Shown here in pieces: positions 3,697-19,700 of a DNA stretch of 64,000 nt. The translations under genes were made by a program, and so were the position numbers. The first letter of the stretch is position 1, and every line of letters starts with the position of its first letter. Origin of the DNA: Candidatus Poribacteria bacterium (GTDB lineage Bacteria > Poribacteria > WGA-4E > WGA-3G). The stretch covers positions 62,001 to 126,000 of the forward strand of contig JAPOZO010000056.1 of NCBI GenBank assembly GCA_026706025.1. The letters are read 5' to 3'. The notes beneath the pieces were generated by a model, which made no database searches, was not told where the DNA came from, and saw only the letters and a list, made by a program, of their open reading frames with translations.

Positions 3697-6033
3697 ATGA
3701 AAAACAACGATGCTGCACTCATCCAACGCGTCCTTGGTGGCGATGATACTGCGTTCTCCGTGCTCGTGAAAAAATATCAGAGATCCGTCCATGCACTGGC
3801 ATGGCGGAAGATCGGAGATTTCCATATCGCCGAGGATATTACACAGGATACGTTCTTGAAAGCGTATCAGAGACTCTCAACATTAAAGAAACCGCAGCGT
3901 TTTGGGAGTTGGCTTTATGTTATAACCGCGAATCAGTGTAAGGCATGGCTCCGTAAAAATCGGGCGTGGACGCAGACGTTGGAAGACACGAGCAACCTAC
4001 AGTTAGAAGAAGCGACGTATTCTGGCTATGTCATTGAGGAGAACGAGCGGATGTCGATTGAAACACAACACGAAGTCGTTAAGAAGTTGCTTGCGAAGTT
4101 ACAAGAGAGTGACCGGACTGTCATCACGCTCTATTACCTTGGGGGAATGACGTACGAAGAGATAAGCAAGTTTCTGGGTGTATCGGAGGCGGCGATTCGA
4201 AATCGTCTCTACCGTGCACGTCGCCGCTTAAAAAAGGAGGAACCGATGATTCGAGAGGCTTTAGGCAACTTCCAAATTACGCCGAATCTTACTGAGAATA
4301 TCATGCACGAGATTTCGCGTCTAAAACCGGTTGCACCGTCTGGTAGCAAACCATTGGTGCCGTGGGCAATAGGTGTTTCAGCGTTAGTCGTGTTTTTGAT
4401 GTTAAGTGTCGGCAGTCAATACCTGTCGCGATTCCAAAAACCTTACAGTTTTGACGCGACATCAGAAATGACGGTTGATATTATTGAAACGCCAGTCGTG
4501 TTAGATATTAAATCGAAACCGGATGTCCGAACGCAGCTCGGTAGCACTGCCGCAGAAAATAAAAATGATGGTGCCGGTCAGCAACTTGATGCTGTCTTAT
4601 TTGCTGCGGCGCAGGTAGACAGAGAAGATATTCCTGAAAACATGCCACAAAATCCGCAAGAACACTGGTACAACCTCACCTTGATGAATACTAAGATCGG
4701 TTACATGTACATATCCAGTGAAAAAACCGAGTACGAAGGGGAAGAGGTGGATCGGAATAAAATTAATACGGTTATAAATCTTAAGGGACTCGGGAGCGAT
4801 GTAACAATTGAAAGGGCCCACGTTGAGTATATAGGGACCGATTTAATACCGCGCCACTTTCTTTTCTCCTCCAATGAATCCGGCTTAAAACAGGTAGAGG
4901 GACGCATCATAGAGGGTGTGGCACACATTAAAACAACGCTCAACGGTGAGACGACTGAATCAGAAGTGCCAGTGCCACCGGATACAATTTCTGAATATAC
5001 AAGTGTGGAATCGCTTTTTCAACAGGGTCTTAAAATAGGCGACAAGCGGAACTTCCACATTTTCAGCCTCGACCTCTTAAGACCGGTAAAAACAGAGATT
5101 GAGGTTGAAGCGCAAGACACCTTAACCTATCAGTCAGAGGAAAAACAGGTCTATGTCTTACGTCAAACGATGGACATGATGAATAGGCTTACCACGAAGG
5201 TCTGGCTTGATGCTGATGGCGTAAGTTACCGAACCCAGACACCGATGATGGGTGTCTCTATGGTAACAACAAAAACCGATAAGGAGGCCGCCCTTGGCGA
5301 TACGGAAGAGGTTGATATCGTTTTAAAAACGCGTATTCTTCCCTCCGGCAAACCCCCTGCGCGAAACGCCAGAAACTTTGAAGCCGACGTAAAATTGACA
5401 TCAGGAAGTATCGCTGATACCATCATGTCTAATTCCCGTCAAAAACTGGAAGCAAACAGTGAGCAATCAGGTAGACTTTCGGTTCAGGTGCCAACAGTCG
5501 CATCAGAGGATTGCCCCGATTTACCGATCCAGGATGCTGAAGGTAAATACCTTGGCGCGAGTGCTTACATTCAAGCCGACGCACCAGCGATTCGTGCGAA
5601 AACCGAGGAAATATTAGATGGGGAAATTAATTCGTGGCGTGCGGCAGAAAAATTATGCCAATGGGTTCATACAGCCATTACGGATAAAAAAATGAGTGGC
5701 GGTTTCGGTTCATCATTAACTGCCCTGGAATCGCTCTCCGGGGATTGTACGGAACACACTGTGCTTTTTATTGCTTTAGCCCGGGCTGCTGGAATTCCGG
5801 CACGCATCTGCTCCGGTATCGCATTTGCACAGCAGGATGCCTTTTACTACCACTTCTGGGCTGAAGTCTACGTCGGCAGGTGGGTACAGATGGATCCAAC
5901 ATGGGGACAGACCATCGCCGATGCGAATCATATTCAACTCGACGGAAGTACCTTGGAATCAGATACGCTGTTGGAATTCGCTGAAGACGTTCTTCGAACG
6001 CTTAATCAACTTGAAATTGCCATCGTTGAATAA
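3697..6033 (+). CDS. ECF sigma factor - transmembrane - transglutaminase-like fusion
   Basis: A 778-residue protein. Residues about 10-76 are sigma-70 region 2 (HIAEDITQDTFLKAYQRL) and about 130-180 region 4 (TYEEISKFLGVSEAAIRNRL). A membrane helix (PWAIGVSALVVFLMLSVGS) spans about 222-240. The remaining 530 residues should be periplasmic and end in a transglutaminase/protease core with the triad Cys684 (GDCTEH), His719 (YYHFW) and Asp733 (MDPTW). The start is ATG 3697, not the TTG at 3682: CAGAGG precedes it and both paralogues begin MKN at the same place. Sigma domains normally direct RNA polymerase; how a tethered one would be released is not evident. A link between cell-wall or protein chemistry outside and transcription inside is inference. 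Confidence 0.88.
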   Translation: MKNNDAALIQRVLGGDDTAFSVLVKKYQRSVHALAWRKIGDFHIAEDITQDTFLKAYQRLSTLKKPQRFGSWLYVITANQCKAWLRKNRAWTQTLEDTSNLQLEEATYSGYVIEENERMSIETQHEVVKKLLAKLQESDRTVITLYYLGGMTYEEISKFLGVSEAAIRNRLYRARRRLKKEEPMIREALGNFQITPNLTENIMHEISRLKPVAPSGSKPLVPWAIGVSALVVFLMLSVGSQYLSRFQKPYSFDATSEMTVDIIETPVVLDIKSKPDVRTQLGSTAAENKNDGAGQQLDAVLFAAAQVDREDIPENMPQNPQEHWYNLTLMNTKIGYMYISSEKTEYEGEEVDRNKINTVINLKGLGSDVTIERAHVEYIGTDLIPRHFLFSSNESGLKQVEGRIIEGVAHIKTTLNGETTESEVPVPPDTISEYTSVESLFQQGLKIGDKRNFHIFSLDLLRPVKTEIEVEAQDTLTYQSEEKQVYVLRQTMDMMNRLTTKVWLDADGVSYRTQTPMMGVSMVTTKTDKEAALGDTEEVDIVLKTRILPSGKPPARNARNFEADVKLTSGSIADTIMSNSRQKLEANSEQSGRLSVQVPTVASEDCPDLPIQDAEGKYLGASAYIQADAPAIRAKTEEILDGEINSWRAAEKLCQWVHTAITDKKMSGGFGSSLTALESLSGDCTEHTVLFIALARAAGIPARICSGIAFAQQDAFYYHFWAEVYVGRWVQMDPTWGQTIADANHIQLDGSTLESDTLLEFAEDVLRTLNQLEIAIVE

Positions 6034-6227: not shown

Positions 6228-7151
6228 ATGAACCTCCTTCAACTTGAACATGTTCATAAACGGTTTGGTGACTTTACAGCGGTATCGGATATCTCCTTTA
6301 GTATTGAAACAGGGAGCATATACGGACTTTTGGGGCCCAACGGTGCCGGAAAAACAACGACACTCCGCATGATAATGGACATTATTGCACCAGATGCAGG
6401 CAACATTACGTTCAGTGGCAATCGGCAGGTCCAAGATTTTTTGGATCAGATTGGGTATCTGCCGGAGGAACGCGGCTTGTACCGGAAAATGAAGGTGCGC
6501 GATGTTATCCTCTTTATCGCCGAGTTAAAAGGTTTATACAAACAGCAGGCACTCAGCGAAATTGAGCAGTGGCTGGAGAAGATGCAGCTATCGGAATGGG
6601 AAAACAAACGGATTGATGAACTTTCTAAGGGAATGGCACAGAAAATTCAGTTCATTACGACGGTCATCCACAAACCGGAGTTGATTATTCTTGATGAACC
6701 TTTTTCCGGGCTGGACCCGATTAACATGACACTCCTCAAAGATTTGATGCTTGAGTTGCGTGAGAACGGTAGTACGATCATCTTCTCAACGCATGTGATG
6801 GAGCAGGTGGAGAAACTCTGTGATCGCATCTGTCTCATTCATCAAGGTGAGGTGTTACTTGAAGGCGAACTCCGCGCCGTGAAGCGTGCCTTCGGTAAAA
6901 ATTCTGTTGAGATTGAATACATCGGTAGTCTGGAACCAATTCGCAATTCCGCTTGCATTCAAGGGGTCAACGATTTCGGACAGTACGCTGAGATCAAGTT
7001 GAAGACACCGGAAGACTATCGTCCATTTCTCCAAGAATTGGTTGAAAAGGGTGTTGATGTCACACGGTTTGAATTGATGGAGCCAACGTTGCACGAAATT
7101 TTCGTCCAGAGCGTTGAAGCACACGGAGGGGTCGTGCAAAATGCCGAATAA
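6228..7151 (+). CDS. ABC-2 exporter ATP-binding protein (NatA-like)
   Basis: A 307-residue ATPase. It has Walker A GPNGAGKTT (about 35-43), the Q-loop region, signature LSKGMAQKIQF in place of LSGGQ, Walker B LIILDEPFSGLDP and the switch His in IFSTHVMEQVE. A C-terminal extension of about 90 residues (DUF4162 type) matches NatA/CcmA-like exporters of the ABC-2 group. GGGAGAAAAAG before the ATG is a good ribosome site. It overlaps the permease gene by 11 bp, so the two are translationally coupled. The pair probably exports sodium, a lipid or an unknown compound; the substrate cannot be read from sequence. Confidence 0.92.
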   Translation: MNLLQLEHVHKRFGDFTAVSDISFSIETGSIYGLLGPNGAGKTTTLRMIMDIIAPDAGNITFSGNRQVQDFLDQIGYLPEERGLYRKMKVRDVILFIAELKGLYKQQALSEIEQWLEKMQLSEWENKRIDELSKGMAQKIQFITTVIHKPELIILDEPFSGLDPINMTLLKDLMLELRENGSTIIFSTHVMEQVEKLCDRICLIHQGEVLLEGELRAVKRAFGKNSVEIEYIGSLEPIRNSACIQGVNDFGQYAEIKLKTPEDYRPFLQELVEKGVDVTRFELMEPTLHEIFVQSVEAHGGVVQNAE

Positions 7152-8472
7152 AATTGTTGCCGTCATCAAACGTGAATATATGACGCGCGTTAAATCTAAA
7201 GGATTTATTGCTTCCTTGTTTCTCATGCCGGTTTTGATGTGTGGGTTGGTATTATTGTCCAGTTTTCTCGCAATTATGGAGGACAAAACCGAAGAGATGA
7301 GAAAACTTGCGGTCATTGATGAGACGGGTGAAATCTTTGAGCAGATGCAAGCGGCTGTTGCCAAGCATCCGACTTTTCAGCATAAGGGTGAACTTGTCTA
7401 TCAGCTGCATGAGGAGACCACTACCACAGAAGCCGAAAAAACTGCCCTCCAGGAACGCGTCAGGACAAAAGAACTCTACGCCTATCTTGAAATCCCGAAG
7501 GATGTTTTTGCAAGTGGGGGGGTCCGTTTCTACGCCAGAACAGTGACAAATTCTAATATACAAAACGCGTTCCGCCGTATCATTTCAGACATCGTCCGGG
7601 ACAAACGGTTTGCTGAGAGCGGTTATTCTCAGCGTGAAGTCCGTCAACTCATGCGCTCCGTTGGCTTCAACGCTTATGCTGTCAAAAGTGGCAAGGGGAA
7701 AGACGGTGGTGCTAAAGTTGAAAGTGCTTTAGAGACGGGAGCGCGGCTCGGACTCGGCTACCTTCTTGTTTTTGTGCTTTACCTGTTTGTTATCATCTAC
7801 GCCAACTCCATCATGCGGAGTGTGCTGGAAGAAAAAACAACTCGGATTGTTGAGGTGATTATTTCTTCAATAAAACCGCATCAGCTCTTACTCGGAAAAC
7901 TCATTGGGGTTTGCTCTGTCTGTTTAACAATGTTTGCTATCTGGGTGATATTTGGTGTGTTATTGGTTATGAACATAAAGCCGCTACTCGGCATCTTTGG
8001 CATTGATAGTCTGCCTATACAGTTTATCCAAGTAATTGGGACTATCAAAGCGAGTGGTACCGAGATACTTACATATTTCTTTGTCTATTTCATTATCGGT
8101 TTCTTTATGTATTCGACGCTTTATGCTGTTGTCGGTGCGATTTGCAGCAGTGAAGAGGAGGCGCAGCAGACAGGAGGCCCCCTCACGATGCTCATCATTA
8201 TCCCGTTCATACTGATGTTCCAGTTATTTAGGATCCCCGATTCGACACTCAGTGTGTTGCTCTCCCACATCCCATTTTTCTCGCCGATACTTATGTTCAT
8301 GCGTATCAACGTGCTAATGCCGCCTTTATGGGAGATTCTACTGAATATCTTGTTGATGTGCGCGACTGTTCTGCTGGTCATGCTTATCAGCGGGAAAATC
8401 TATCGGGTTGGGATTCTGATGTACGGTAAACGTCCTACTTTTGGGCAATTATGGCAGTGGATGCGGTACTGA
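7141..8472 (+). CDS. ABC-2 transporter permease (NatB-like)
   Basis: A 443-residue integral membrane protein. The first helix is at about residues 20-45, a large soluble loop follows to about 205, and five more hydrophobic segments run from about 210 to 435 (LGYLLVFVLYLFVIIYANS, IIIPFILMFQLF and others). The motif MRSVLEEKTTRIVEVIISSI is a hallmark of the NatB/ABC-2 family and contacts the ATPase. The start is ATG 7141, inside the ATPase gene and preceded by GGAGGGG. This is the membrane partner of the upstream ATPase; both sit between two sigma-fusion paralogues but need not be regulated by them. Confidence 0.9.
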   Translation: MPNKIVAVIKREYMTRVKSKGFIASLFLMPVLMCGLVLLSSFLAIMEDKTEEMRKLAVIDETGEIFEQMQAAVAKHPTFQHKGELVYQLHEETTTTEAEKTALQERVRTKELYAYLEIPKDVFASGGVRFYARTVTNSNIQNAFRRIISDIVRDKRFAESGYSQREVRQLMRSVGFNAYAVKSGKGKDGGAKVESALETGARLGLGYLLVFVLYLFVIIYANSIMRSVLEEKTTRIVEVIISSIKPHQLLLGKLIGVCSVCLTMFAIWVIFGVLLVMNIKPLLGIFGIDSLPIQFIQVIGTIKASGTEILTYFFVYFIIGFFMYSTLYAVVGAICSSEEEAQQTGGPLTMLIIIPFILMFQLFRIPDSTLSVLLSHIPFFSPILMFMRINVLMPPLWEILLNILLMCATVLLVMLISGKIYRVGILMYGKRPTFGQLWQWMRY

Positions 8473-8540
8473 ACCTACCTCAAAAGCAATCTCTCCTGAA
8501 AATCTACTTTTCCGAATCTATATCCTTTTAGTCAGATTTA

Positions 8541-8549
8541 TGCTATAAT
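8541..8549 (+). promoter_or_regulatory. extended -10 promoter TGCTATAAT
   Basis: GATTTATGCTATAAT matches the promoters before sigma-fusion genes 1 and 3. Here it sits 448 bp before gene 2, separated from it by a sigma-4 fragment and a hairpin. A second possible promoter, TTGACT (8778-8783) with GAAAAT 17 bp later, lies closer to the gene. Confidence 0.55.
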
Positions 8550-8730
8550 GTTGCTAACAGCACTTCAGGAGAGTGAACGCACCGTCATCACGCTCTACTA
8601 CCTCGGGGGAATGACGTATGAAGAGATCAGCAAGTTTTTAGGTGTAACTGAATTTGAAAAGCGTGATGATTTGTTTGGCGAGGTCCCTGTGCCTCGCCTT
8701 CATTTTTGGATTGAGGTATGTCCTCTGTAG
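8548..8730 (+). pseudogene. fragment of a sigma-70 region 4 (ECF paralogue debris)
   Basis: A 60-codon open frame. Residues 7-33 (LQESERTVITLYYLGGMTYE and on to KFLGV) are nearly identical to sigma region 4 of the three neighbouring fusion proteins. After that the homology stops and the tail is unrelated. Region 2 and the recognition helix are missing, so it cannot act as a sigma factor. It is most likely a relic of a recombination event. A short transcript from the promoter at 8541 to the hairpin at 8677 is possible, but translation is doubtful because the ATG overlaps the -10. Confidence 0.7.
8677..8706 (+). terminator. GGCGAGG...CCTCGCC hairpin with T-rich tail
   Basis: A 7-bp G+C stem (8677-8683 with 8692-8698) and an 8-base loop, followed by TTCATTTTTGG. 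The shape is that of an intrinsic terminator directly after the sigma-4 fragment. The GGCGAGG/CCTCGCC arms also recur in the GTAGGGG repeat family. Confidence 0.55.
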
Positions 8731-8996: not shown

Positions 8997-11900
8997 ATGA
9001 AAAACGATGATGTTCAACTCATCCAACGCGTCCTTGATGGCGATGATACCGCCTTTTCCGTGCTTGTCAGAAAATACCAAAAGTCGGTACATGCGCTGGC
9101 GTGGCGGAAGATTGGGGATTTCCACATCGCCGAGGATATCACACAAGAGACGTTCCTAAAAGCGTATCAGGGCCTCTCTACGCTGAAGGAACCACAATCC
9201 TTTGCAAGTTGGCTCTATGTGATAACAGCGAATCATTGCAACACGTGGCTCCGTAAGAAACGTTTACGGACGCAGTCGTTGGAAGACACCAGCAGCACGC
9301 AGTTGGAAAAAACAACGTATTCTGGATATGTCATTGAAGAAAATGAACGAATGACGATAGAAACGCAACGCGAAGTTGTCAAGAAACTACTCTCGAAATT
9401 AAAGGAAAGCGATCGGACCGTCATCACACTTTATTACTTCGGGGGCATGACTTATGCAGAGATCAGTAAGTTTTTGGGTGTATCGGTCGGTGCGATTAAA
9501 AATCGCGTTTACCGTGCGCAAGAACGTCTGAAGAAGGAGGAACCCATGATAAGAGAGACTTTAGAAAACTTCCAAATTGCTCCAAACCTTACAGAGAACA
9601 TTATGCATGAGATTTCGCGCCTGAAACCGATTACACCATCAGGCAGCAAGCCGTTAGTGCCGTGGGCAATCGGTGTTTCTACAATAGCAGTCGTCTTTTT
9701 GATGTTAGGTGTCGGCACGGCGTACTTATCGCGTTTTCAAAAACCGTACAGTTTTGATGCGACCTCAGAAATGACGGTTGATATTATTGAAACGCCAGTC
9801 GTATTAGATATTGAATCGAAACCTGATGTCCGAACGCATCTCGGGAGCACTGTCGCGTCCAGTAAAAATGATGGTGTCGGTCAGCAGCCTGATGAGGTCT
9901 TGTTTGCTGCCGCAGAAATAGAAGGAGAGGATGTTTCTGTACCAAAACAGCAGTGGATTCAGGCAGGACCGATCAAAGGAAGTAAAGCAGAAGGTTTACT
10001 TGCGACATCTGAGGGTGAGCTTTACACTTTTGCTGATATGCAAGTTTACAAATTGGAAGCCGATGGAAAAGAGGGGCGACACATCTTTGATTTTAGATCA
10101 CTGTTAAATTCTCGCCCTCCAACTGCACCCCTCGCAAAGTGGAAAGATACCCTTTACATTATATTGGCAAACGAACTTCTTGCTTCAAAGGACGATGGTC
10201 AGACCTGGGATTTGGTACACGCTTTGCCAGACAGACATTATGATGCTATTGGCTTGATACTAACAGAGCGGGCGTTTTATGCCGCTTTTGAAAACGGAAT
10301 TTTCCGTTCTGAAGATAACGGTAAAACGTGGCAGGCAATAAACGATGGGTTAATGATGGGGGATATGGGGTATATCCGTTCTATAGTCAATATGCAAGAC
10401 ACCTTGTTTGCTGGAACCAGCAATGGACTCTACCGCCTCAATGCTGACAGTTGGCAACGTGTGGCGTTTTCAGTATCCGTCGGACGGATCCGTTCACTTG
10501 CCGCAACAAAAAATAAACTTTACGTTGCTGCGGAGATGAGTGATGCGGATCCTCGTGCAGTTTCCAGGGGACAGCAGCAGGCTTGGTGGATATTCCGCTC
10601 AACTGATTTAGGGAATTCGTGGGACGATATTACGCCAACAAACGCGTGGGCAGTAAAAGGATGGCCCCCTTTTGTTAAACTTATTGCTGCAGGTGACACA
10701 CTTTTGGCGATGGAACAAGGAATGGTGCGCTCTACTGATGGTGGAAACACGTGGCTGCCACCACAATTACCAGGTACGTCCCCTCCAATGAATGCTGATG
10801 GAGACGTTGCGATAGCAGTAAACGAGAGCGTTCTTTATGTTGGGAGTTGGCGTAGTGGACTCCATCGTTCCACCGATGCTGGCAAATCATGGGACATGGT
10901 AAACATCACCCCGGATACAGGTCAAATCGGTAATCTCATCGCGCATAGAGAAAACAGTAAACGGGATAACATGCCCCTGACGCTTTACGCGAGATATGAA
11001 GAAGAAAAGGTTGTAAAAACTGTCGATAATGGTAAGTCTTGGAAGACCGTTCAAATAGAAATGCCGATGACAGCATCTCGCAGAGAAAGTATACCAAGTA
11101 TTACCCATATTGTCAAAGCTGATGGTAAAATCTATGCAAAAGGTGGGGATTCGCTTGGCAGAGGGAAAACACACCTATATCGCGTATCTACAGATAGCAA
11201 TTCGCTTATACCGATACAAGGTTTGCCAATCTTTGACGCACTGGAATTAACGTTCGAGTTGGGTCAAATGAGAAGGAACCGGTCCAATCTATCAGACGCA
11301 TCGGTCATTGAGCAGTTGCGAGAAAAGGCTCCTGGCGCGACCGAGTTCTTCAAGCAGTTGGTAGGATGGGATCCTCGACAGCCGGATATATATACGCAAT
11401 TAGGGTTCCGTAAGGGGGCGTTTGCTGTTAGCGGTGATACGTTTTATATGGAATACAACTATAAACTTTTCCGATGGGAACCGGGTGACACTGAATGGTA
11501 CGACACCGAACAGGAAGAAACCGTTGAACTGTCTCCGAAATTGGCATTCAGAGAACTGAAACTTGCGGCTTCAGGGAACACCGTCTACGTCGGCAAACGG
11601 GACGGACACCTCGTCGTCTCGTTTGATAAGGGAAATAATTGGCTTGATCTCACGCCAGCGCTGCCGTTTCCCGTTAAAGCCTTCAATGATATGGTGTCTG
11701 CGGGTTCCACGGTCTATGTAGCAACAGACACAGGTATCATTACATCAGACGGTGGAAGACATTGGCATATCGTCACTGATGCAGAAGGAAACAATCTCAT
11801 TATGGAGCACTTGGCTGTTGATGGTACAAAGGTTTATGGTATTTCCAAGGCGGGTGTCTATCGGTTGAAAAATAAAAACGACACGTGGAAACAGATCGCA

Positions 11901-12002
11901 TCAGAGGTGCCAGAAAGGGTGTCCTCGCTTGCTGTTGATGGGAACGTATTGTATGTCGGCACGCGGGGCAGCGGGGTGCTGCATTTCAATCTTGACGAAT
12001 AA
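8997..12002 (+). CDS. ECF sigma factor - transmembrane - BNR/Ycf48-like propeller fusion
   Basis: A 1001-residue paralogue of the first fusion; the two are near-identical in style through about residue 310. Sigma region 2 (HIAEDITQETFLKAYQGL) and region 4 (MTYAEISKFLGVSVGAIKNR) are followed by a membrane helix at about 222-243. From about residue 320 the protein switches to a beta-propeller of Asp-box/photosystem-stability-factor type. At least seven repeats carry motifs such as SKDDGQTWDLV, SEDNGKTWQAI, STDGGNTWLPP, STDAGKSWDMV and SFDKGNNWLDL. The propeller should lie outside the membrane and may bind glycan or protein; sialidase catalytic residues were not found. The same start motif (MKNDD) supports ATG 8997. 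Confidence 0.88.
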   Translation: MKNDDVQLIQRVLDGDDTAFSVLVRKYQKSVHALAWRKIGDFHIAEDITQETFLKAYQGLSTLKEPQSFASWLYVITANHCNTWLRKKRLRTQSLEDTSSTQLEKTTYSGYVIEENERMTIETQREVVKKLLSKLKESDRTVITLYYFGGMTYAEISKFLGVSVGAIKNRVYRAQERLKKEEPMIRETLENFQIAPNLTENIMHEISRLKPITPSGSKPLVPWAIGVSTIAVVFLMLGVGTAYLSRFQKPYSFDATSEMTVDIIETPVVLDIESKPDVRTHLGSTVASSKNDGVGQQPDEVLFAAAEIEGEDVSVPKQQWIQAGPIKGSKAEGLLATSEGELYTFADMQVYKLEADGKEGRHIFDFRSLLNSRPPTAPLAKWKDTLYIILANELLASKDDGQTWDLVHALPDRHYDAIGLILTERAFYAAFENGIFRSEDNGKTWQAINDGLMMGDMGYIRSIVNMQDTLFAGTSNGLYRLNADSWQRVAFSVSVGRIRSLAATKNKLYVAAEMSDADPRAVSRGQQQAWWIFRSTDLGNSWDDITPTNAWAVKGWPPFVKLIAAGDTLLAMEQGMVRSTDGGNTWLPPQLPGTSPPMNADGDVAIAVNESVLYVGSWRSGLHRSTDAGKSWDMVNITPDTGQIGNLIAHRENSKRDNMPLTLYARYEEEKVVKTVDNGKSWKTVQIEMPMTASRRESIPSITHIVKADGKIYAKGGDSLGRGKTHLYRVSTDSNSLIPIQGLPIFDALELTFELGQMRRNRSNLSDASVIEQLREKAPGATEFFKQLVGWDPRQPDIYTQLGFRKGAFAVSGDTFYMEYNYKLFRWEPGDTEWYDTEQEETVELSPKLAFRELKLAASGNTVYVGKRDGHLVVSFDKGNNWLDLTPALPFPVKAFNDMVSAGSTVYVATDTGIITSDGGRHWHIVTDAEGNNLIMEHLAVDGTKVYGISKAGVYRLKNKNDTWKQIASEVPERVSSLAVDGNVLYVGTRGSGVLHFNLDE

Positions 12003-12046: not shown

Positions 12047-12156
12047 ATTTCACTTCTATCTAATCTATCTAAAAACACACCCCTTGCATTAAAACGGAAG
12101 AGTGAACAGGCTAACAGCCTATTCTACAGAAGATATCTAAACACACCCAACTTGCA

Positions 12157-12222
12157 TTAAAACTCCGCACTGACCGTCATCTCCAGACGGTATTCCGGTT
12201 TGGTTAGGAATGCAGATCGCAT
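12157..12222 (-). pseudogene. 3' end remnant of a barrel-protein gene
   Basis: On the minus strand the bases encode LTKPEYRLEMTVSAEF then TAA. The giant barrel protein downstream ends KPEHRLEMTISAEL then TAA. The remnant is only about 20 codons long and has no gene around it. A direct repeat of about 28 bp (ATCTAAACACACC..TTGCATTAAAAC) occurs at 12063 and 12136 beside it. It points to loss of a second barrel gene that once converged on sigma-fusion gene 2. Confidence 0.65.
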
Positions 12223-12234
12223 GAATCAACGGTA

Positions 12235-12390
12235 TGAATGCCTTATGGGCATTCCCCGGGGTGAGTACACCGCAAAACCGCACCATAGGTGTCAATTTAG
12301 TACCGTAGGCCCCATACGCTAATCGCTAAACGCAGAGAAACCCAACTTGAGACCTCAGGTGCAGGGAAACCGTAAAGTGTTGGGTTTCTC
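12235..12390. other. hairpin-rich non-coding stretch
   Basis: The 730-bp gap 12003-12732 has no credible gene. It holds GAATGCC/GGGCATTC (about 12235-12257) and a 12-bp perfect inverted repeat GAGAAACCCAAC/GTTGGGTTTCTC (12335-12346 with 12379-12390) around a 32-base loop, followed by T-rich sequence. A structured RNA, a repeat element or a terminator are all possible. Confidence 0.35.
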
Positions 12391-12505
12391 TCGATTTTCT
12401 GTTTGACGTGCCATCTATGGAAGGCTGAGTCTTGTATTACTTTTCAGCGTTTTGGAGTATCCGTTCAACCCAACCTACAGGACTACACACTTTTAGCCGG
12501 ATTTA

Positions 12506-12514
12506 TGCTATAAT
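12506..12514 (+). promoter_or_regulatory. extended -10 promoter TGCTATAAT
   Basis: GATTTATGCTATAAT, 219 bp before sigma-fusion gene 3 and identical in its core to the 8541 site. It probably drives gene 3 with the housekeeping sigma. Confidence 0.6.
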
Positions 12515-12648
12515 TCTACTAATAGATAGAAACAGAAGCGAATCAAACAACCACAGATTCCCTTACCTCTCATTATTATCAGAATAGAATCTCAGGCCTC
12601 TTGTCAGGAACCTATATCTTCCTATGGCGTTTGAGAAATAAAAATTTG

Positions 12649-12732
12649 CAGAATTGTGTGACCTTTTCATCTCAACTCGCATCATTAAATGTTGATATGA
12701 AATGATGGACATTCCCTTTTTAGAGGTATCCG
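12649..12732 (+). promoter_or_regulatory. conserved 5' leader of sigma-fusion gene 3
   Basis: 84 bp homologous to the leaders of genes 1 and 2. GTGACC (12658-12663) and ATCATTA (12681-12687) are 17 bp apart, matching the gene 2 layout. GAAATGATGGACATTCCC and TTAGAGG precede the ATG. Confidence 0.55.
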
Positions 12733-15700
12733 ATGAAAAATAACGATGCTGAACTCATCCAACGCGTCCTCGAAGGCGATGATACGGCGTTCTCTGTGCT
12801 TGTGAAAAAATACCAAAAGCCGGTGCACGCGCTGGTGTGGCGGAAGATCGGAGATTTCCATATCGCCGAAGACATCACACAGGATACATTCCTGAAGGCG
12901 TATCAGAGACTCTCTACTCTGAAGAAACCGCAGCGGTTCGCGAGTTGGCTCTATGTGATAGCGACAAACTACTGCAAAATGCGGATCCGTAAGAAACGTT
13001 TATCAACGCAGTCGTTGGAGGATATAAATAGCACGACGTTAGAAAGTGCGACGTATTCTGGATATGTTATTGCGGAAAACGAGCAGGAAACGGCGGAAGC
13101 ACAGCGCGAAGTCGTCAAGAAGTTGCTTGCGAAACTTCAGGAGAGTGAACGCACCGTCATCACGCTGCATTACCTCGGGGGAATGACGTATAAGGAGATA
13201 AGCGAGTTTTTAGGCGTATCAGTAGGGACGATTAAAACTCGCGTTTACCGTGCTCGGCAACGTCTGAAGAAGGAGGAACCGATGATTCGAGAAGCTTTAG
13301 GCAATTTCCAAATTACGCCAAATCTTACTGAGAATATCATGCAAGAAATCTCGCGTCTGAAACCCGTTACTCCGTCCGGCAGTAAACCGTTAGTGCCATG
13401 GGCAATCGGTGTTTCAGCGTTAGTCGTCGTATTTTTGATGTTGGGTGTCGGGACGCAATACTTATCCCGTTTCCAGAAACCTTACAGTTTTGATGCCGCA
13501 TCAGAGATGACAGTTGAACTCATTGAAGCACCGGTTGTGCTGAACCTCGAAGCCAAACCGGACGTTCGGACGCAACTTGGAAACGCCAATGCACCGAGTG
13601 AGGCGGATACTATCAGTCGGCAGCCTAACGACGTTTCAGCATCGGTTGCAGAAGTAGAATCAAACGAGAAAATTAAAAACCACGCACATTGGCAGCTGCC
13701 CAAAGCGGCAAAAGCGCGTTTCGGAAAAGGTGGGATTACCATAATCCAGTTTTCACCGGATGGAGCCCTACTCGCGGTGGGTAGTAATATCGGGGTATGG
13801 CTGTATGATGTGGCAACAGGTGAGGAGAAATCTTTGCTTGGTATCGGAATGTGTGAAGCCCTCAGATTTTCACCGGATGGTCGTTTCCTTGCCGCTTCTT
13901 CTGAGGAGACGCTCATCCAATTGTGGGAGGTCGCTACCGAGCGCGAAGTGCCGCTTATTGACTTGTACGGGGAGGCTTCCGTATTGCGATTCTCTTCAGA
14001 TGGAAAAACGCTGATCGGTTTGAGTAGTTCTGGGCATGCTGCAATTACGCGATTGAATATTGAGAACGGGAAAGGGAAAACAAAACACCTTAAAACTGGG
14101 CTATTCGGCATCGGTCTCTTTGGTTCTGAGGATTTTACCGGTGTTTACGCGATGACGAGCGATAAAATCGCGATTGGAAAAAGGAACGGGATGATCCAGT
14201 TATGGGACGCAGCAACCCGTAAAAAGTTATCGACGCTCAAAGGACACGTAGATTTGCCGCTTCAGCCGTTGAATAAACCTGTGCATCGCATGTTTAAAAA
14301 CAATTGGGTCTTAGCAGTGGCGTTTTCGCCGGATGGTACCCGTCTCGCCAGTGGCAGCACAGATATGACAGTCCGATTGTCGGATACTACTGGTGACAGG
14401 GATTCGATGACGCTGCAGAAACATACTGGACCAACAAATGTGCTGGCGTTTTCACCCGATGGGAAAATGCTTGCCAGCGGCAGCACTGACAAAACCGTGC
14501 AATTGTGGGATACCACTACCGGAGAACCCCTCGCGACGCTCACCGGTCATATCAGCGGCATTACGGCATTAGCATTTTCACCCGATGGTCGTACACTCGT
14601 AAGCGGGAGTACGGATGGCACAATCCGATTCTGGCGGACAACGACTGGGGCTCCAGCAGATACCCTTATCACTGGACACACGCAATCCATAAGAGCGGCG
14701 ACCTTCTTTCAGAATAGTAGGGACGGGGCGACCTCCAAGAAACACCCAAGCAAAAACCCCCTACTTGTCAGCGCGGCGTTTAACGGTGAGATCACCTTTT
14801 GGGATGTGGAAACAGCGCAGCGTAGGGGCGAGGTAACCTCGTCCCTACGCCAAAATAGAGGACATCGGGATTGGTACTCAGCCGTGGCGTTTTCGCCGGA
14901 CGGCACGAAACTCGTCAGTGCAGCAGCAGACGGTACGATAGGTTTCGGTGGGTTCCCTTCTTTTACGAATCCAGATAATCTAACTCGGTTGACGGATGTA
15001 TCGACAGGAGACGAACTCGCAACCTGGCAGAAACATGCCAGAGAACTTACCTTTTCTCCTGACGATAGAACTAAAACGGTGGCGATTACTTCGAGTGGTG
15101 CCATTCGCTTATGGAATACGGAAACAGGCGATGAATTGGTCATTCCGATTCATGATGACCTACCCCTCGGTTTTCACCACAATATGCCAACGGTTTTAGC
15201 AGTGGCGTTTTCGCCAGATGGTAGATGGCTTGTGAGTGGGACTACAGAAGGGGAAATCCGAATGTGGGATGTTGCGACTGGTGAACCGTTGGCTGTCTTT
15301 GCAGAACCGACGGAACAAGAGAATCTGGGGCATATTTCGGCAGTGGCGTTTTCACCAGACCGCGCCTTGCTCTCTGCGGGTACACCGAGTCAACTTCATT
15401 TATGGGACGTGCGTACCGGTCATAAAATTTTTTCGGTTAGCACTGTGCATAAACGAGGTTGGCGGACATACCATGATTATCCAAAACCGTTGGTGTTTTC
15501 ACCGGATGGCGCAATTCTCATCAATGGGCATGGCAGCGGGACAATCCAATTATGGGATGTCAAGACTGGAGACAGAATCGCTGCACTTGATGGGCATACG
15601 CAGGAAGTGGAGACGTTGAAATTTTCGCCTGACGCGGAAACACTGGTTAGCACGGCACAAGACGGCACAATCTTTTTTTGGGATTGGGATGAAGCTATCA

Positions 15701-15735
15701 CCGGTTCGGCTAACACCGACGAACAGCCCAATTAG
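12733..15735 (+). CDS. ECF sigma factor - transmembrane - WD40 propeller fusion
   Basis: A 1000-residue third paralogue. Sigma region 2 and region 4 (MTYKEISEFLGVSVGTIKTR) and a membrane helix at about 222-243 are as in the other two. From about residue 325 the protein is WD40 repeats, with many copies of AFSPDG..LxSGSxDxTxRLWD (for example LASGSTDKTVQLWDTTTGEP), probably two propellers. Two dispersed palindromes are translated in frame here, giving ATSKKHPSKNPLL (about 662-677) and RRGEVTSSLRQ (about 697-706). They interrupt the repeat spacing, and a TFFQNSRDG junction marks the first. Membrane ECF factors with WD40 tails are known from Planctomycetes; function remains inferred. It ends 41 bp from the convergent barrel gene. 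Confidence 0.88.
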   Translation: MKNNDAELIQRVLEGDDTAFSVLVKKYQKPVHALVWRKIGDFHIAEDITQDTFLKAYQRLSTLKKPQRFASWLYVIATNYCKMRIRKKRLSTQSLEDINSTTLESATYSGYVIAENEQETAEAQREVVKKLLAKLQESERTVITLHYLGGMTYKEISEFLGVSVGTIKTRVYRARQRLKKEEPMIREALGNFQITPNLTENIMQEISRLKPVTPSGSKPLVPWAIGVSALVVVFLMLGVGTQYLSRFQKPYSFDAASEMTVELIEAPVVLNLEAKPDVRTQLGNANAPSEADTISRQPNDVSASVAEVESNEKIKNHAHWQLPKAAKARFGKGGITIIQFSPDGALLAVGSNIGVWLYDVATGEEKSLLGIGMCEALRFSPDGRFLAASSEETLIQLWEVATEREVPLIDLYGEASVLRFSSDGKTLIGLSSSGHAAITRLNIENGKGKTKHLKTGLFGIGLFGSEDFTGVYAMTSDKIAIGKRNGMIQLWDAATRKKLSTLKGHVDLPLQPLNKPVHRMFKNNWVLAVAFSPDGTRLASGSTDMTVRLSDTTGDRDSMTLQKHTGPTNVLAFSPDGKMLASGSTDKTVQLWDTTTGEPLATLTGHISGITALAFSPDGRTLVSGSTDGTIRFWRTTTGAPADTLITGHTQSIRAATFFQNSRDGATSKKHPSKNPLLVSAAFNGEITFWDVETAQRRGEVTSSLRQNRGHRDWYSAVAFSPDGTKLVSAAADGTIGFGGFPSFTNPDNLTRLTDVSTGDELATWQKHARELTFSPDDRTKTVAITSSGAIRLWNTETGDELVIPIHDDLPLGFHHNMPTVLAVAFSPDGRWLVSGTTEGEIRMWDVATGEPLAVFAEPTEQENLGHISAVAFSPDRALLSAGTPSQLHLWDVRTGHKIFSVSTVHKRGWRTYHDYPKPLVFSPDGAILINGHGSGTIQLWDVKTGDRIAALDGHTQEVETLKFSPDAETLVSTAQDGTIFFWDWDEAITGSANTDEQPN
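14717..14764. repeat. GTAGGG...CCCCTAC element inside the WD40 gene
   Basis: 48 bp (16 codons) beginning GTAGGGACGGGGCGACCTCC, followed by AAGAAACACCCAAGCAAAAA and ending CCCCTAC. It carries the same core as the intergenic element at 1942-2015. The length is a multiple of three, so the frame survives. Confidence 0.65.
14821..14849. repeat. GTAGGGGCGAGGT palindrome inside the WD40 gene
   Basis: CGTAGGGGCGAGGT followed by AACCTCGTCCCTACG, a near-perfect palindrome read in frame as RRGEVTSSLR. Close relatives are at 17723-17750 and at the right end of 16671-16741. Confidence 0.65.
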
Positions 15736-15776: not shown

Positions 15777-18700
15777 TTAAAGTTCTGCGCTGATTGTCAT
15801 CTCTAAGCGGTGTTCAGGTTTGCGCTGCTTTGTGGAGAGTAAACGATAATTAAGTCGAAACAACAGATCGGTGAATTTTCGTAATCTGTAATCCGCCGTT
15901 GTGCGAACTTCGTGGCTGATGCCTTCGTAGAAAGTATATTGCGCGAACGGGATACTGCCGCTGCTTTTACCGTAGCCGAGTTTGTAGTTGAAATCAACGC
16001 GTCCCTTACCGATGAGACTATACGTGATACGGTTTTCATAAGAAAAGGTGCGTGTCTTAGCTTCAGGTTCTTCGTCAAGCTGCTCCTCGTCGGTTGTCTG
16101 TTTATAGCCACCGATCCCGCTCCATCGTAGCGTATTACTCAACTCGTATCGGAGGTTCAGTTCAGTTATCTGCTCAAGTTGACGGAGATCTGATATAGGT
16201 GTAGGCGGAGGATCTTCTATCGCATCGGTAGGATCGGTTTCCTGCGTGAGGTCCTCTTCGGAAGGCACGCGATGGCGTGCTTCCGAAAAATCGAATTGGC
16301 TATATTTTTCGTTTTCCCGACGTTGTTCCCAATTTGCGCCGACAGACAGGCGTTTCGTAGGATTCACGGAGAAACCGACATCCCATGTGTTATGTTGTCT
16401 GTGACGTTCTTGGTTATTGATCCGCTTGTTAAGTGTTTCACCAGTGCGGAGGTTGAACTCAAGGCTGAACGCCGGTGAGGGTGAAAACTCAAGTCGGTGG
16501 TGCTGGTTCAACCGCCCGAAAAGCGTATCCGCGCCTTGTAAACTTTGGAGCAGGTACAGAGATACCGCATCTTCTACCTCCTGTTCCTCGGTTAGCCACA
16601 ACCGCACTTGACCTCTGAGCGCGCTGAGAAACCATTCTAAATAGTTAACAGTTATCAGTTTTCGGTTATCGTAGGGGTGTTTTTGCTTGGGTGTTTCTTC
16701 AGGTTTCCCAACCCGTGCGGACGAGGGGACCTCGCCCCTACGATCATTGGTAACTGATGACTGACGACCATTTGGTGTTGGACGCAAACTATCACGTTTC
16801 AACATTGATTCACGTTGCTGCTGTTGGCGCGCTCTGGCACGCCGGGCAAAATACTGACGTGGTTGAAAACGGATACGGAATTCGGCATCCACCGCCGTTG
16901 TCGGTTTATCACCAACATTTTGATAGATTTTGATGTAAGTGCCTTCCTCGGGATCCTCTACATAGTGCAGATCGTCCAGCTTCACGTAATAGCCTTCGCC
17001 GGGTTGAAGTAAAATACCCGTGTGTGGATGAATGTTGGTATAGACTTCATGCCGTTGGCTCGTCAATTTTTTATCTAATTCGTAGGTGAGTTCTATGTCA
17101 ATTGCGCGACTGAATGGTGTCAACTGAAGGTTGATATCGGCAAGTTGCGTTGTTGTGTTCGCACCGATATCCGTATGTGCCTTCAGCATCCGACGCGCCA
17201 AGTTGGCTGTCAGATTCACGCCACCGCTGAGAAAAGATTTCTGTTGTGAAAAGAGACCGACTTTCCACGTTCGTGCCGTAGTGCTCCGCTGCCAATCGGA
17301 GAGACCGATCGGTGTGTCGTCCACAGTGAGCAACGGCTCTTTTGCATAAGCCTCCTCAAGTTCGTAACTGGTGTTGACGGACACCCAGCTGAATTCAACG
17401 AGATTGACGCGTCCGATCGCGCGGTTCCGTTTTCGGTTGAGTGTAGCATTGCGTGCCTCGTTCGATTCCAACCTACCCAAGGTCCCAATAATTCTGAAGG
17501 GACCGAGCGGATAGGAGAGGTTACCTTCCTGTCGCGACTTTCGTTGTGACTGCGTCCGTGTTGAATCTTCACTCTCCACATGCGAACTGCTCCGATAATC
17601 ATCCCAACGGAAATTCGGTAATTTCCTCAGCAACTGCGCGCCCTTAGACGGTGCTTTTTCTGACACCTCTTCAGAAGTCACGCTATGGCGTGTTTCCGGT
17701 GACATTCTCGCTTGCCTGCTTGGTACGGGCGAGGTTACCTCGCCCCTACGACTGCGGGTAGGCAGGATACTCCCACTGCCCGAACGTTGATTGAAGTTTA
17801 CGCCCCAATTGAAATTATCACGGATAGTTGCGTTGGTAGGAATGGTTTTTTCAAATTGCTGGAAGCCACCTGGTGAATCAGATCCCTCTGACTGACTGCT
17901 GATTGCTGACTGCTGACTGCTATTTTCCTCGGTCCGACCGACTCCGGCATCAACGGCTAACCAATCTGTCGGTATCAGTCGGATGTCAAAGTTCGCGGCT
18001 CTCTCATCTCGGGAAATTTGTGAGCGTCCAGCACTATCAAAAAGAAACGCATCATCAAAACCCTCTTTAGCGTATTGCGTTTCATAACGGGAACGGGAAC
18101 GGTTACTACTTGAGGCACCGACAGGCACAAAATCGGCATCCATTGCCCGTATGTCAAGATTTGTGTTCAGTTTAGGTTGGAACTTCTCCGTCCATGTAGC
18201 GAAATCCCAGTCTGCATAGCCTATCAGTTTCCACGCCTGACTCACCTCTTTACGGTCTACGGTGGAATAGGTGTTTTTATCAAGATTGCTGTAGGCGAGT
18301 TCACCTTCGACCCACGCTTTTTCGGTGATATTCACACGACTTTCAACACCCCATACCGTATGTTTCTGCGGTGCCGTGAGCAGCGATCCGTTTTCCTCTG
18401 GATCAAGGGTATTTTGGCGCAGTGCCTCCAGATCCGCGTCCGTGATTTGGATTAAAGCCTGTTCGGGTTGGTTTAGGTCCGCCTCAACGGCATAGGAGGC
18501 ACCGAGGGTTATCCGTTCGCCGGGCAGTGTGAAGACACTGCTGAGTCCGTACAGATTCTGTTGATATGCCCGCTCTTCAGGGATATATTCAAAGTCAATC
18601 CGAATCGTGTCGTTGCTTGTTATCAGGTGTTTGCTGTTGAATTCGATGATCGGATCCCCATATTCTCGAATAACGTAATCGTTGTTTTCACCGCGCCGCA

Positions 18701-19700
18701 TCCGCTCGCCATTCAACCAGACGATTTCACTGCCTGCTTTCACAATGACGTATTGTCCATCGACTGTGAGTCGATATTCGCTCCGTCCTTCCTCTCCGCG
18801 CAGGACTAAACTCGTAGACTGTCCTTTCGGGATAGCACTCGGAATGAGATGAAATTTCCCCCATTTGAAATCGCCTTCGACTTGTACACCTTCAAGTGCC
18901 CGTGGGAAGAAGATAAACTCCGAGGCACCGAGTGATCCCTCAAAATCGCCTAATGTGCCGCTCATATTCGGATGCGTGATACGCACCAACTTCTGATCGA
19001 TGTCTTGGATACTCTCGGTTGTACCTTCGGGTTGAATTGGTAAATCTTGGTCGGATAATAGCGCGAGGATACTGATGTTCTCTGAAACATTGCCCTCCAC
19101 ATTAACACGCAATTCCTGATTCGGTGTCACGTCACGTCCACTCCCAACCGAGATACCGAATGTCTGGCTACCGGAAACTTCTAATTGTGATGTTTGGCTA
19201 TCGGGAGATGTCAGTTGTCGGTTGTCAGTTAAAAAGCGGTTTGTCTCATCAGACTTCTCTTTCTCTGATGACGCCTCCGCTGATGGAAACCGAAGGCTAT
19301 CCGGGTTTTGCTCACCGTAAAGGTCGCGTTTATAGACCTCTTTTATTGCGAAAGGCAGTGTGCGATAGGTTATCTTTAATCTATAGGGGTCGGTAATAGC
19401 ATCCCGCTTTACTATAGTGATCTTTCCGGGATAGAAATCAATTTGATAGTCTACATTTCGGACAAGGATTTTTCCGTTCGCTGCGACTAACTGTTCACTG
19501 TTTGGGAGAATCGGTGGGTACTTCACCGTAAATTCCTGGGCATCGGTTTTCAGTTCAAAGGACTCCGTTTTCTGGAGAACGGAAAAGGTGGGAAGTTCGA
19601 GGGCTTTCGTTTGGTCATCAGCGGATTCTTGTGCCGTACTTCGGGGACACGGTAGCAGGCACAAACAGAGTGGAACGAGGAAAAAGAGTCGGATAGGCAT
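15777..19700 (-). CDS. giant outer-membrane beta-barrel-like protein
   Basis: A 1307-residue secreted protein with a signal peptide ending at about CPRSTAQ. Near residue 85 a short repeat-like domain (NGKILVRNVDYQIDFYPGKI) precedes GSGRDVTPNQELRVNVEGNV and LLSDQDLPIQPEGTTES, wording reminiscent of SprA-like and related large barrel proteins. The C-terminal 700 residues alternate polar and aromatic residues as amphipathic strands and end in the barrel-like KPEHRLEMTISAEL. Several dispersed palindromes are read through in frame, at about residues 155-165, 592-605, 650-676, 986-1020 and 1138-1148, giving low-complexity loops (for example SSQQSAISSQSEGSD). The partner or cargo is unknown. It converges on the WD40 sigma fusion. 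Confidence 0.7.
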   Translation of the reverse strand: MPIRLFFLVPLCLCLLPCPRSTAQESADDQTKALELPTFSVLQKTESFELKTDAQEFTVKYPPILPNSEQLVAANGKILVRNVDYQIDFYPGKITIVKRDAITDPYRLKITYRTLPFAIKEVYKRDLYGEQNPDSLRFPSAEASSEKEKSDETNRFLTDNRQLTSPDSQTSQLEVSGSQTFGISVGSGRDVTPNQELRVNVEGNVSENISILALLSDQDLPIQPEGTTESIQDIDQKLVRITHPNMSGTLGDFEGSLGASEFIFFPRALEGVQVEGDFKWGKFHLIPSAIPKGQSTSLVLRGEEGRSEYRLTVDGQYVIVKAGSEIVWLNGERMRRGENNDYVIREYGDPIIEFNSKHLITSNDTIRIDFEYIPEERAYQQNLYGLSSVFTLPGERITLGASYAVEADLNQPEQALIQITDADLEALRQNTLDPEENGSLLTAPQKHTVWGVESRVNITEKAWVEGELAYSNLDKNTYSTVDRKEVSQAWKLIGYADWDFATWTEKFQPKLNTNLDIRAMDADFVPVGASSSNRSRSRYETQYAKEGFDDAFLFDSAGRSQISRDERAANFDIRLIPTDWLAVDAGVGRTEENSSQQSAISSQSEGSDSPGGFQQFEKTIPTNATIRDNFNWGVNFNQRSGSGSILPTRSRRGEVTSPVPSRQARMSPETRHSVTSEEVSEKAPSKGAQLLRKLPNFRWDDYRSSSHVESEDSTRTQSQRKSRQEGNLSYPLGPFRIIGTLGRLESNEARNATLNRKRNRAIGRVNLVEFSWVSVNTSYELEEAYAKEPLLTVDDTPIGLSDWQRSTTARTWKVGLFSQQKSFLSGGVNLTANLARRMLKAHTDIGANTTTQLADINLQLTPFSRAIDIELTYELDKKLTSQRHEVYTNIHPHTGILLQPGEGYYVKLDDLHYVEDPEEGTYIKIYQNVGDKPTTAVDAEFRIRFQPRQYFARRARARQQQQRESMLKRDSLRPTPNGRQSSVTNDRRGEVPSSARVGKPEETPKQKHPYDNRKLITVNYLEWFLSALRGQVRLWLTEEQEVEDAVSLYLLQSLQGADTLFGRLNQHHRLEFSPSPAFSLEFNLRTGETLNKRINNQERHRQHNTWDVGFSVNPTKRLSVGANWEQRRENEKYSQFDFSEARHRVPSEEDLTQETDPTDAIEDPPPTPISDLRQLEQITELNLRYELSNTLRWSGIGGYKQTTDEEQLDEEPEAKTRTFSYENRITYSLIGKGRVDFNYKLGYGKSSGSIPFAQYTFYEGISHEVRTTADYRLRKFTDLLFRLNYRLLSTKQRKPEHRLEMTISAEL
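16257..16287. repeat. CGGAAG-GCACGC palindrome inside the barrel gene
   Basis: TTCGGAAGGCACGC, GATG, then GCGTGCTTCCGAA: a near-perfect inverted repeat in the coding region. Relatives are at 17672-17699 (same gene) and 23918-23959 (galK). Confidence 0.6.
16640..16741. repeat. composite repeat insertion in the barrel gene
   Basis: ATAGTTAACAGTTATCAG from the ATAGTTATC family is followed directly by a 71-bp GTAGGGG element (16671-16741, ends GTAGGGG and CCCCTAC, core TGTTTTTGCTTGGGTGTTTC). The frame stays open, giving a loop with RRGEVPSSARV and ETPKQKHPYDNRK. Confidence 0.65.
17672..17750. repeat. two adjacent palindromes in the barrel gene
   Basis: 17672-17699 is CAGAAGTCACGC/GCGTGTTTCCGG type and 17723-17750 is GTACGGGCGAGGT/TACCTCGCCCCTACG type. 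Both are read in frame, as TPETRHSVTS-like and SRRGEVTSPVPSR segments. Confidence 0.6.

Follow-up and report, generated by a model that had tools for sequence, protein, structure and literature searches.

ECF57 sigma factors carry WD40-like C-terminal extensions, and ECF52/SCO4117 and IutY are ECF sigma factors with transmembrane tethers (PMC8999054). Poribacteria are rich in WD40 domains (PMC3909097). In the papers searched we found no description of the sigma-fusion array or the gene stub reported here, or of sigma-WD40 fusions in Poribacteria.

The DNA that we analysed (the window) is a stretch of 64,000 nucleotides, contig C56:62001-126000 of the 6.27-Mb genome of a Candidatus Poribacteria bacterium, a sponge symbiont. 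Three sigma-fusion genes lie on its plus strand as part of a ten-gene tandem array on contig C56. Fusion 1 (3697-6033) combines an ECF sigma module with a transmembrane segment and a transglutaminase-like domain; fusion 2 (8997-12002) has a predicted transmembrane segment and a BNR/sortilin-like propeller; and fusion 3 (12733-15735) has a predicted transmembrane segment and a WD40 propeller. All three proteins have N-terminal sigma-70 regions 2 and 4, with fusions 1 and 2 scoring above the Pfam cut-offs for PF04542 and PF08281, and fusion 3 above the NCBIfam cut-off for TIGR02937. In each, a hydrophobic segment reads as one transmembrane helix, and the C-terminal domain differs from gene to gene. 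The fusions resemble ECF57, ECF52 and IutY, by description, in joining a sigma-2/sigma-4 ECF module to a predicted single transmembrane segment and a C-terminal extension, whether WD40 or another sensor domain. Unlike those systems, they occur as tens of paralogues in each genome, with propeller (WD40, BNR/sortilin) and transglutaminase domains that are interchangeable. Searches with the sigma fusions returned 74 matches at E ≤ 1e-15 in the window's own genome, a figure that includes ordinary ECF factors. At E ≤ 1e-60, 15-17 fusions were found in two members of the genus, versus 0-2 in the non-genus genomes searched.

Fusion 3 converges, with a gap of 41 bp, on a large gene on the minus strand (15777-19700) that is present in a single copy in this genome and encodes a protein of 1307 aa. 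The C-terminal end of the protein reads RKPEHRLEMTISAEL-stop, or over a longer stretch KPEHRLEMTISAEL-stop. Its N-terminus is signal-like, and AlphaFold models of residues 165-1307 and 690-1307, both of low confidence (mean pLDDT 35 and 44), show the C-terminal part with long antiparallel strands, of which the last spans residues of about 1296-1306 (EHRLEMTISAE). These predicted features, shared with large outer-membrane beta-barrels, indicate that the protein is likely to belong to that class, although it differs from known members in that no sequence relative was found in Pfam, NCBIfam or the PDB. The barrel family is present across the phylum, with a match in 58 of 60 genomes.

The stub lies in the spacer between fusions 2 and 3. 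On the minus strand, positions 12157-12201 translate to KPEYRLEMTVSAEF-stop and share homology with the tail of the convergent barrel gene; read from 12222, the translation is MRSAFLTKPEYRLEMTVSAEF-stop. The initial annotation had noticed this match behind the second sigma gene, and it was borne out at the nucleotide level: 34 of 45 nt are identical to the tail of the window's own barrel gene (15777-15821, its last 15 codons), and elsewhere in the window no 45-mer of either strand reached 29 matches. A profile built from the last 120 nt of 35 orthologous barrels detected the site at E = 1e-8 (33.3 bits), compared with a best score of 5.4 bits in reversed sequence. A degenerate codon pattern matched just three sites in the whole genome, namely the stub, C56:52907-52932 and the intact barrel gene, and none in the control. 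The similarity to the parent gene is thus beyond chance, while most of that gene is absent. According to the low-confidence models, the last predicted strand of the barrel is the one that the stub encodes.

The remnant is shorter than the 20 codons originally proposed. A dispersed repeat, of which many copies exist with identities of up to 98%, occupies 12194-12300 on the plus strand, and its other copies open with TCCGGT(T/G)(C/G)GGTTAGGAATGCAGATCGC. This repeat supplies the MRSAFLT codons, and the KP codons (12196-12201), which coincide with its edge, probably belong to it too. The certain barrel remnant is therefore EYRLEMTVSAEF-stop at about 12157-12195, a matter of 12-13 codons. The remainder of the spacer consists of a second dispersed repeat (12328-12487, plus strand; 81-88% identical in many copies) and a sigma upstream block that is common to the spacers of the array (12483-12732, plus strand; profile positions 211-460). 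At window positions 12054-12163, the start of the stub is flanked by a direct repeat of 42 nt whose copies are 79% identical.

A pattern scan of 38 genomes of the genus, combined with profile searches, identified nine stubs in eight genomes, each of a different species (two in G000 and one each in G001, G007, G009, G018, G019, G025 and G032). The second stub of the window's own genome, at C56:52888-52932, reads KSEYRLGMTANAEI-stop and also lies between two sigma fusions, so that this genome holds three barrel-type tails, two of them stubs. Every one of the nine occupies a sigma-fusion spacer or has a sigma remnant next to it, and an assembly artefact is unlikely because one of them sits on a 5.7-Mb contig. 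The layout of the spacers is uniform, with a sigma 3' trailer, the stub and then the sigma upstream block, and the distance from stub to next sigma start is about 274-318 bp where the next sigma gene is intact. Complete stubs start at profile positions 73-75 and run to 117-120, equivalent to 14 codons and a stop.

Eight of the nine stubs share one junction, at which barrel homology ends at codon -15 and the same sigma upstream sequence begins. The 40 nt past this boundary are alike among the eight, and similarity to barrels could not be detected there (shuffle p 0.25-0.99, against 0/300 for the retained part). The stubs also have substitutions in common: a His codon (CAC/CAT), kept in 35/35 intact barrels, has become TAC (Tyr) in six of the nine, and a Pro codon (CCN) has become CTT in seven, a change likewise absent from intact barrels. 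Constraint is relaxed, with 1-nt deletions in the stubs of G007, G018 and G009. Together, the shared junction and the stub-only substitutions point to a single ancestral event, whose product was then copied and decayed.

In the window, the junction itself has been overwritten by the dispersed repeat. We infer from the His-to-Tyr change and from its position that this stub would derive from the same event as the others. It differs at 11 of 45 sites from its own genome's barrel and at 5 of 45 from the barrels of G018 and G032; being closer to the barrels of other species than to its own, it is not the product of a recent local event and is older than the species' recent history.

The present-day arrangement of the barrel gene suggests how such a stub could arise. 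Of the 32 evaluable genomes of the genus, 29 have a sigma fusion convergent with the barrel, or 30 if G030 is counted, in which a partial sigma gene beside the barrel reaches the contig end. The initial annotation had proposed looking beside related sigma fusions for a convergent gene with the same C-terminal motif, and in these genomes it was found. Thirteen genomes have at most 50 bp between the two stop codons, and in three the genes overlap by 4 bp (a gap of -4 bp). With gene ends so close, duplication of a sigma gene together with its 3' flank would take barrel codons along.

We therefore favour an ancestral tandem duplication of a unit comprising sigma upstream sequence, sigma fusion and barrel tip, with a breakpoint in the last 15 codons of the barrel gene, and we assign this reading a probability of roughly 0.74. 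Directly observed are the stub and its homologues, their common junction, the barrel's single copy and how closely it converges with the sigma gene; the order of events is reconstructed. In the ancestor of part of the genus, a sigma fusion would have stood tail to tail with a single-copy barrel gene. Tandem duplication of the sigma gene and its flanks, with its right-hand break within the final 15 codons of the barrel gene, would have produced a new copy carrying the barrel tip, giving the order sigma, barrel tip, sigma upstream block, sigma, intact barrel. Later duplications within the array may then have copied the stub, most copies losing their reading frame or vanishing, and the dispersed repeat would have inserted at the junction in the window spacer later still. 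Under this account the large barrel gene itself was probably never duplicated, and the stub is probably an inert fossil of its last beta-strand. The stub resembles the truncated gene fragments found at tandem-duplication junctions, in that it is a piece of a neighbouring gene at the repeat boundary of an array, decaying as non-coding DNA. It differs from them in that its parent gene is convergent, and in that the piece is always the last 15 codons, a marker shared across eight species. The overwritten junction and good preservation of the window stub count against this reading, as do the many stub losses that it needs, since stub-bearing sigma genes fall in several subclades (4 changes).

The initial annotation had instead proposed that a sigma fusion and its whole convergent barrel were duplicated in tandem, one barrel then being deleted to its last codons. 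Part of this proposal stands, as a piece of the barrel gene was indeed copied along with the neighbouring sigma fusion. Duplication of the whole barrel would explain both the stub and the convergent gene order, and a single ancient deletion of a full copy could likewise yield one shared junction. However, a second full barrel was found in none of the 60 genomes and no longer remnant was detected, nor did any barrel start, middle or upstream sequence turn up in 617 kb of array sequence downstream of barrels. A local deletion in the window spacer is at odds with a boundary identical in eight species. Whole-barrel duplication followed by deletion adds a step that has left no trace, which makes duplication of the tip the simplest account, and we regard the whole-barrel unit as unlikely.

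It is quite improbable that the barrel tip in the window stub was captured separately, at a later date than the other eight and with no connection to them. Such a capture would fit its state of preservation, the best of the nine (33 bits), its CCG Pro codon, perhaps supplied by the repeat, and its distinct 5' flank, where the junction was lost to the repeat. Yet it shares the TAC codon and CGT-CTG with five other stubs, and its divergence from its own barrel shows that it would still be old.

Recurrence in nine spacers might suggest that the 45-nt segment was retained for a function, for example in termination, in insulating convergent or tandem genes from each other, or as the code for a small peptide. 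This we find very hard to sustain, because no terminator-like site was found in the window stub spacer, other stubs carry 1-nt deletions, an insertion or truncations, and most spacers of the same arrays have no stub at all. Finally, a weak alternating pattern closed by an aromatic or large hydrophobic residue is general in the C-terminal strands of barrel proteins, but chance likeness of such beta-signals is refuted by homology at the DNA level with many synonymous differences, the E value of 1e-8, and the restriction of the codon pattern to three sites genome-wide with none in the control.

The initial annotation had suggested coupling of the two gene types by history and possibly by function; the historical link holds within the genus, and the functional one found no support. 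The barrel occurs across the phylum, no sigma fusion was found downstream of it in six genomes of other families, and of the dozens of sigma fusions in a genome just one is its neighbour. The barrel-adjacent sigma gene is, moreover, a different orthologue in different species. Because the six genomes of other families lack the sigma neighbour and the adjacent orthologue varies, the barrel-sigma neighbourhood is a genus-level state, in which the array changes and the barrel is stable. The stub suggests that the barrel was a bystander in array growth. We consider it distinctly unlikely that array and barrel work as one unit, with the array-proximal sigma fusion sensing or controlling the barrel and selection keeping the gene ends together; were it so, the array would turn over beside a sigma-barrel end pair held by selection. 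A shared C-terminal scrap attests that genes have been neighbours; it does not attest that they act together. The value of the stub lies in placing one boundary of the ancestral duplication unit, and in providing a molecular marker for the growth, in sponge symbionts, of an array of membrane-anchored sigma-sensor genes beside a conserved surface-type gene.

Several further observations concern the array and its surroundings. A short sigma fusion of 441-443 aa (C56:35360-36690, L026) is the sole or the distal array member in many genomes of the genus; in G008 and G023 it is the barrel's neighbour, 28 bp away. It is possibly the founding neighbour of the barrel; a search after the conserved 443-aa gene found no recognizable stub. 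Dispersed repeats of the GTAGGGGCGAGGTTACCTCGCCCCTACG and GGGTGTTTTTGCTTGGGTGTTTCTT types also lie inside the WD40 gene and the barrel gene (14717-14849, 16639-16773 and 17723-17750), where they leave the frame unbroken.

At 8467-8649 on the plus strand is the remnant of a deleted sigma fusion, consisting of an upstream block (8467-8560) joined to sigma residues of about 131-163. It sits directly after an ABC permease gene (window 6228-8472), which ends GCGGTACTGA in this genome and in one close relative, G015; in both, the last codon and stop apparently come from the sigma upstream block. The permease was rejected as the ancestral left flank of the array, given that its orthologues lie elsewhere (in G018 at C1:1.94 Mb, versus 4.41 Mb for the array) and have different ends. 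Since these orthologues end GCGATATTAA or similar, and are located away from the array in the relatives checked, the ABC permease operon appears to have entered the array from elsewhere.
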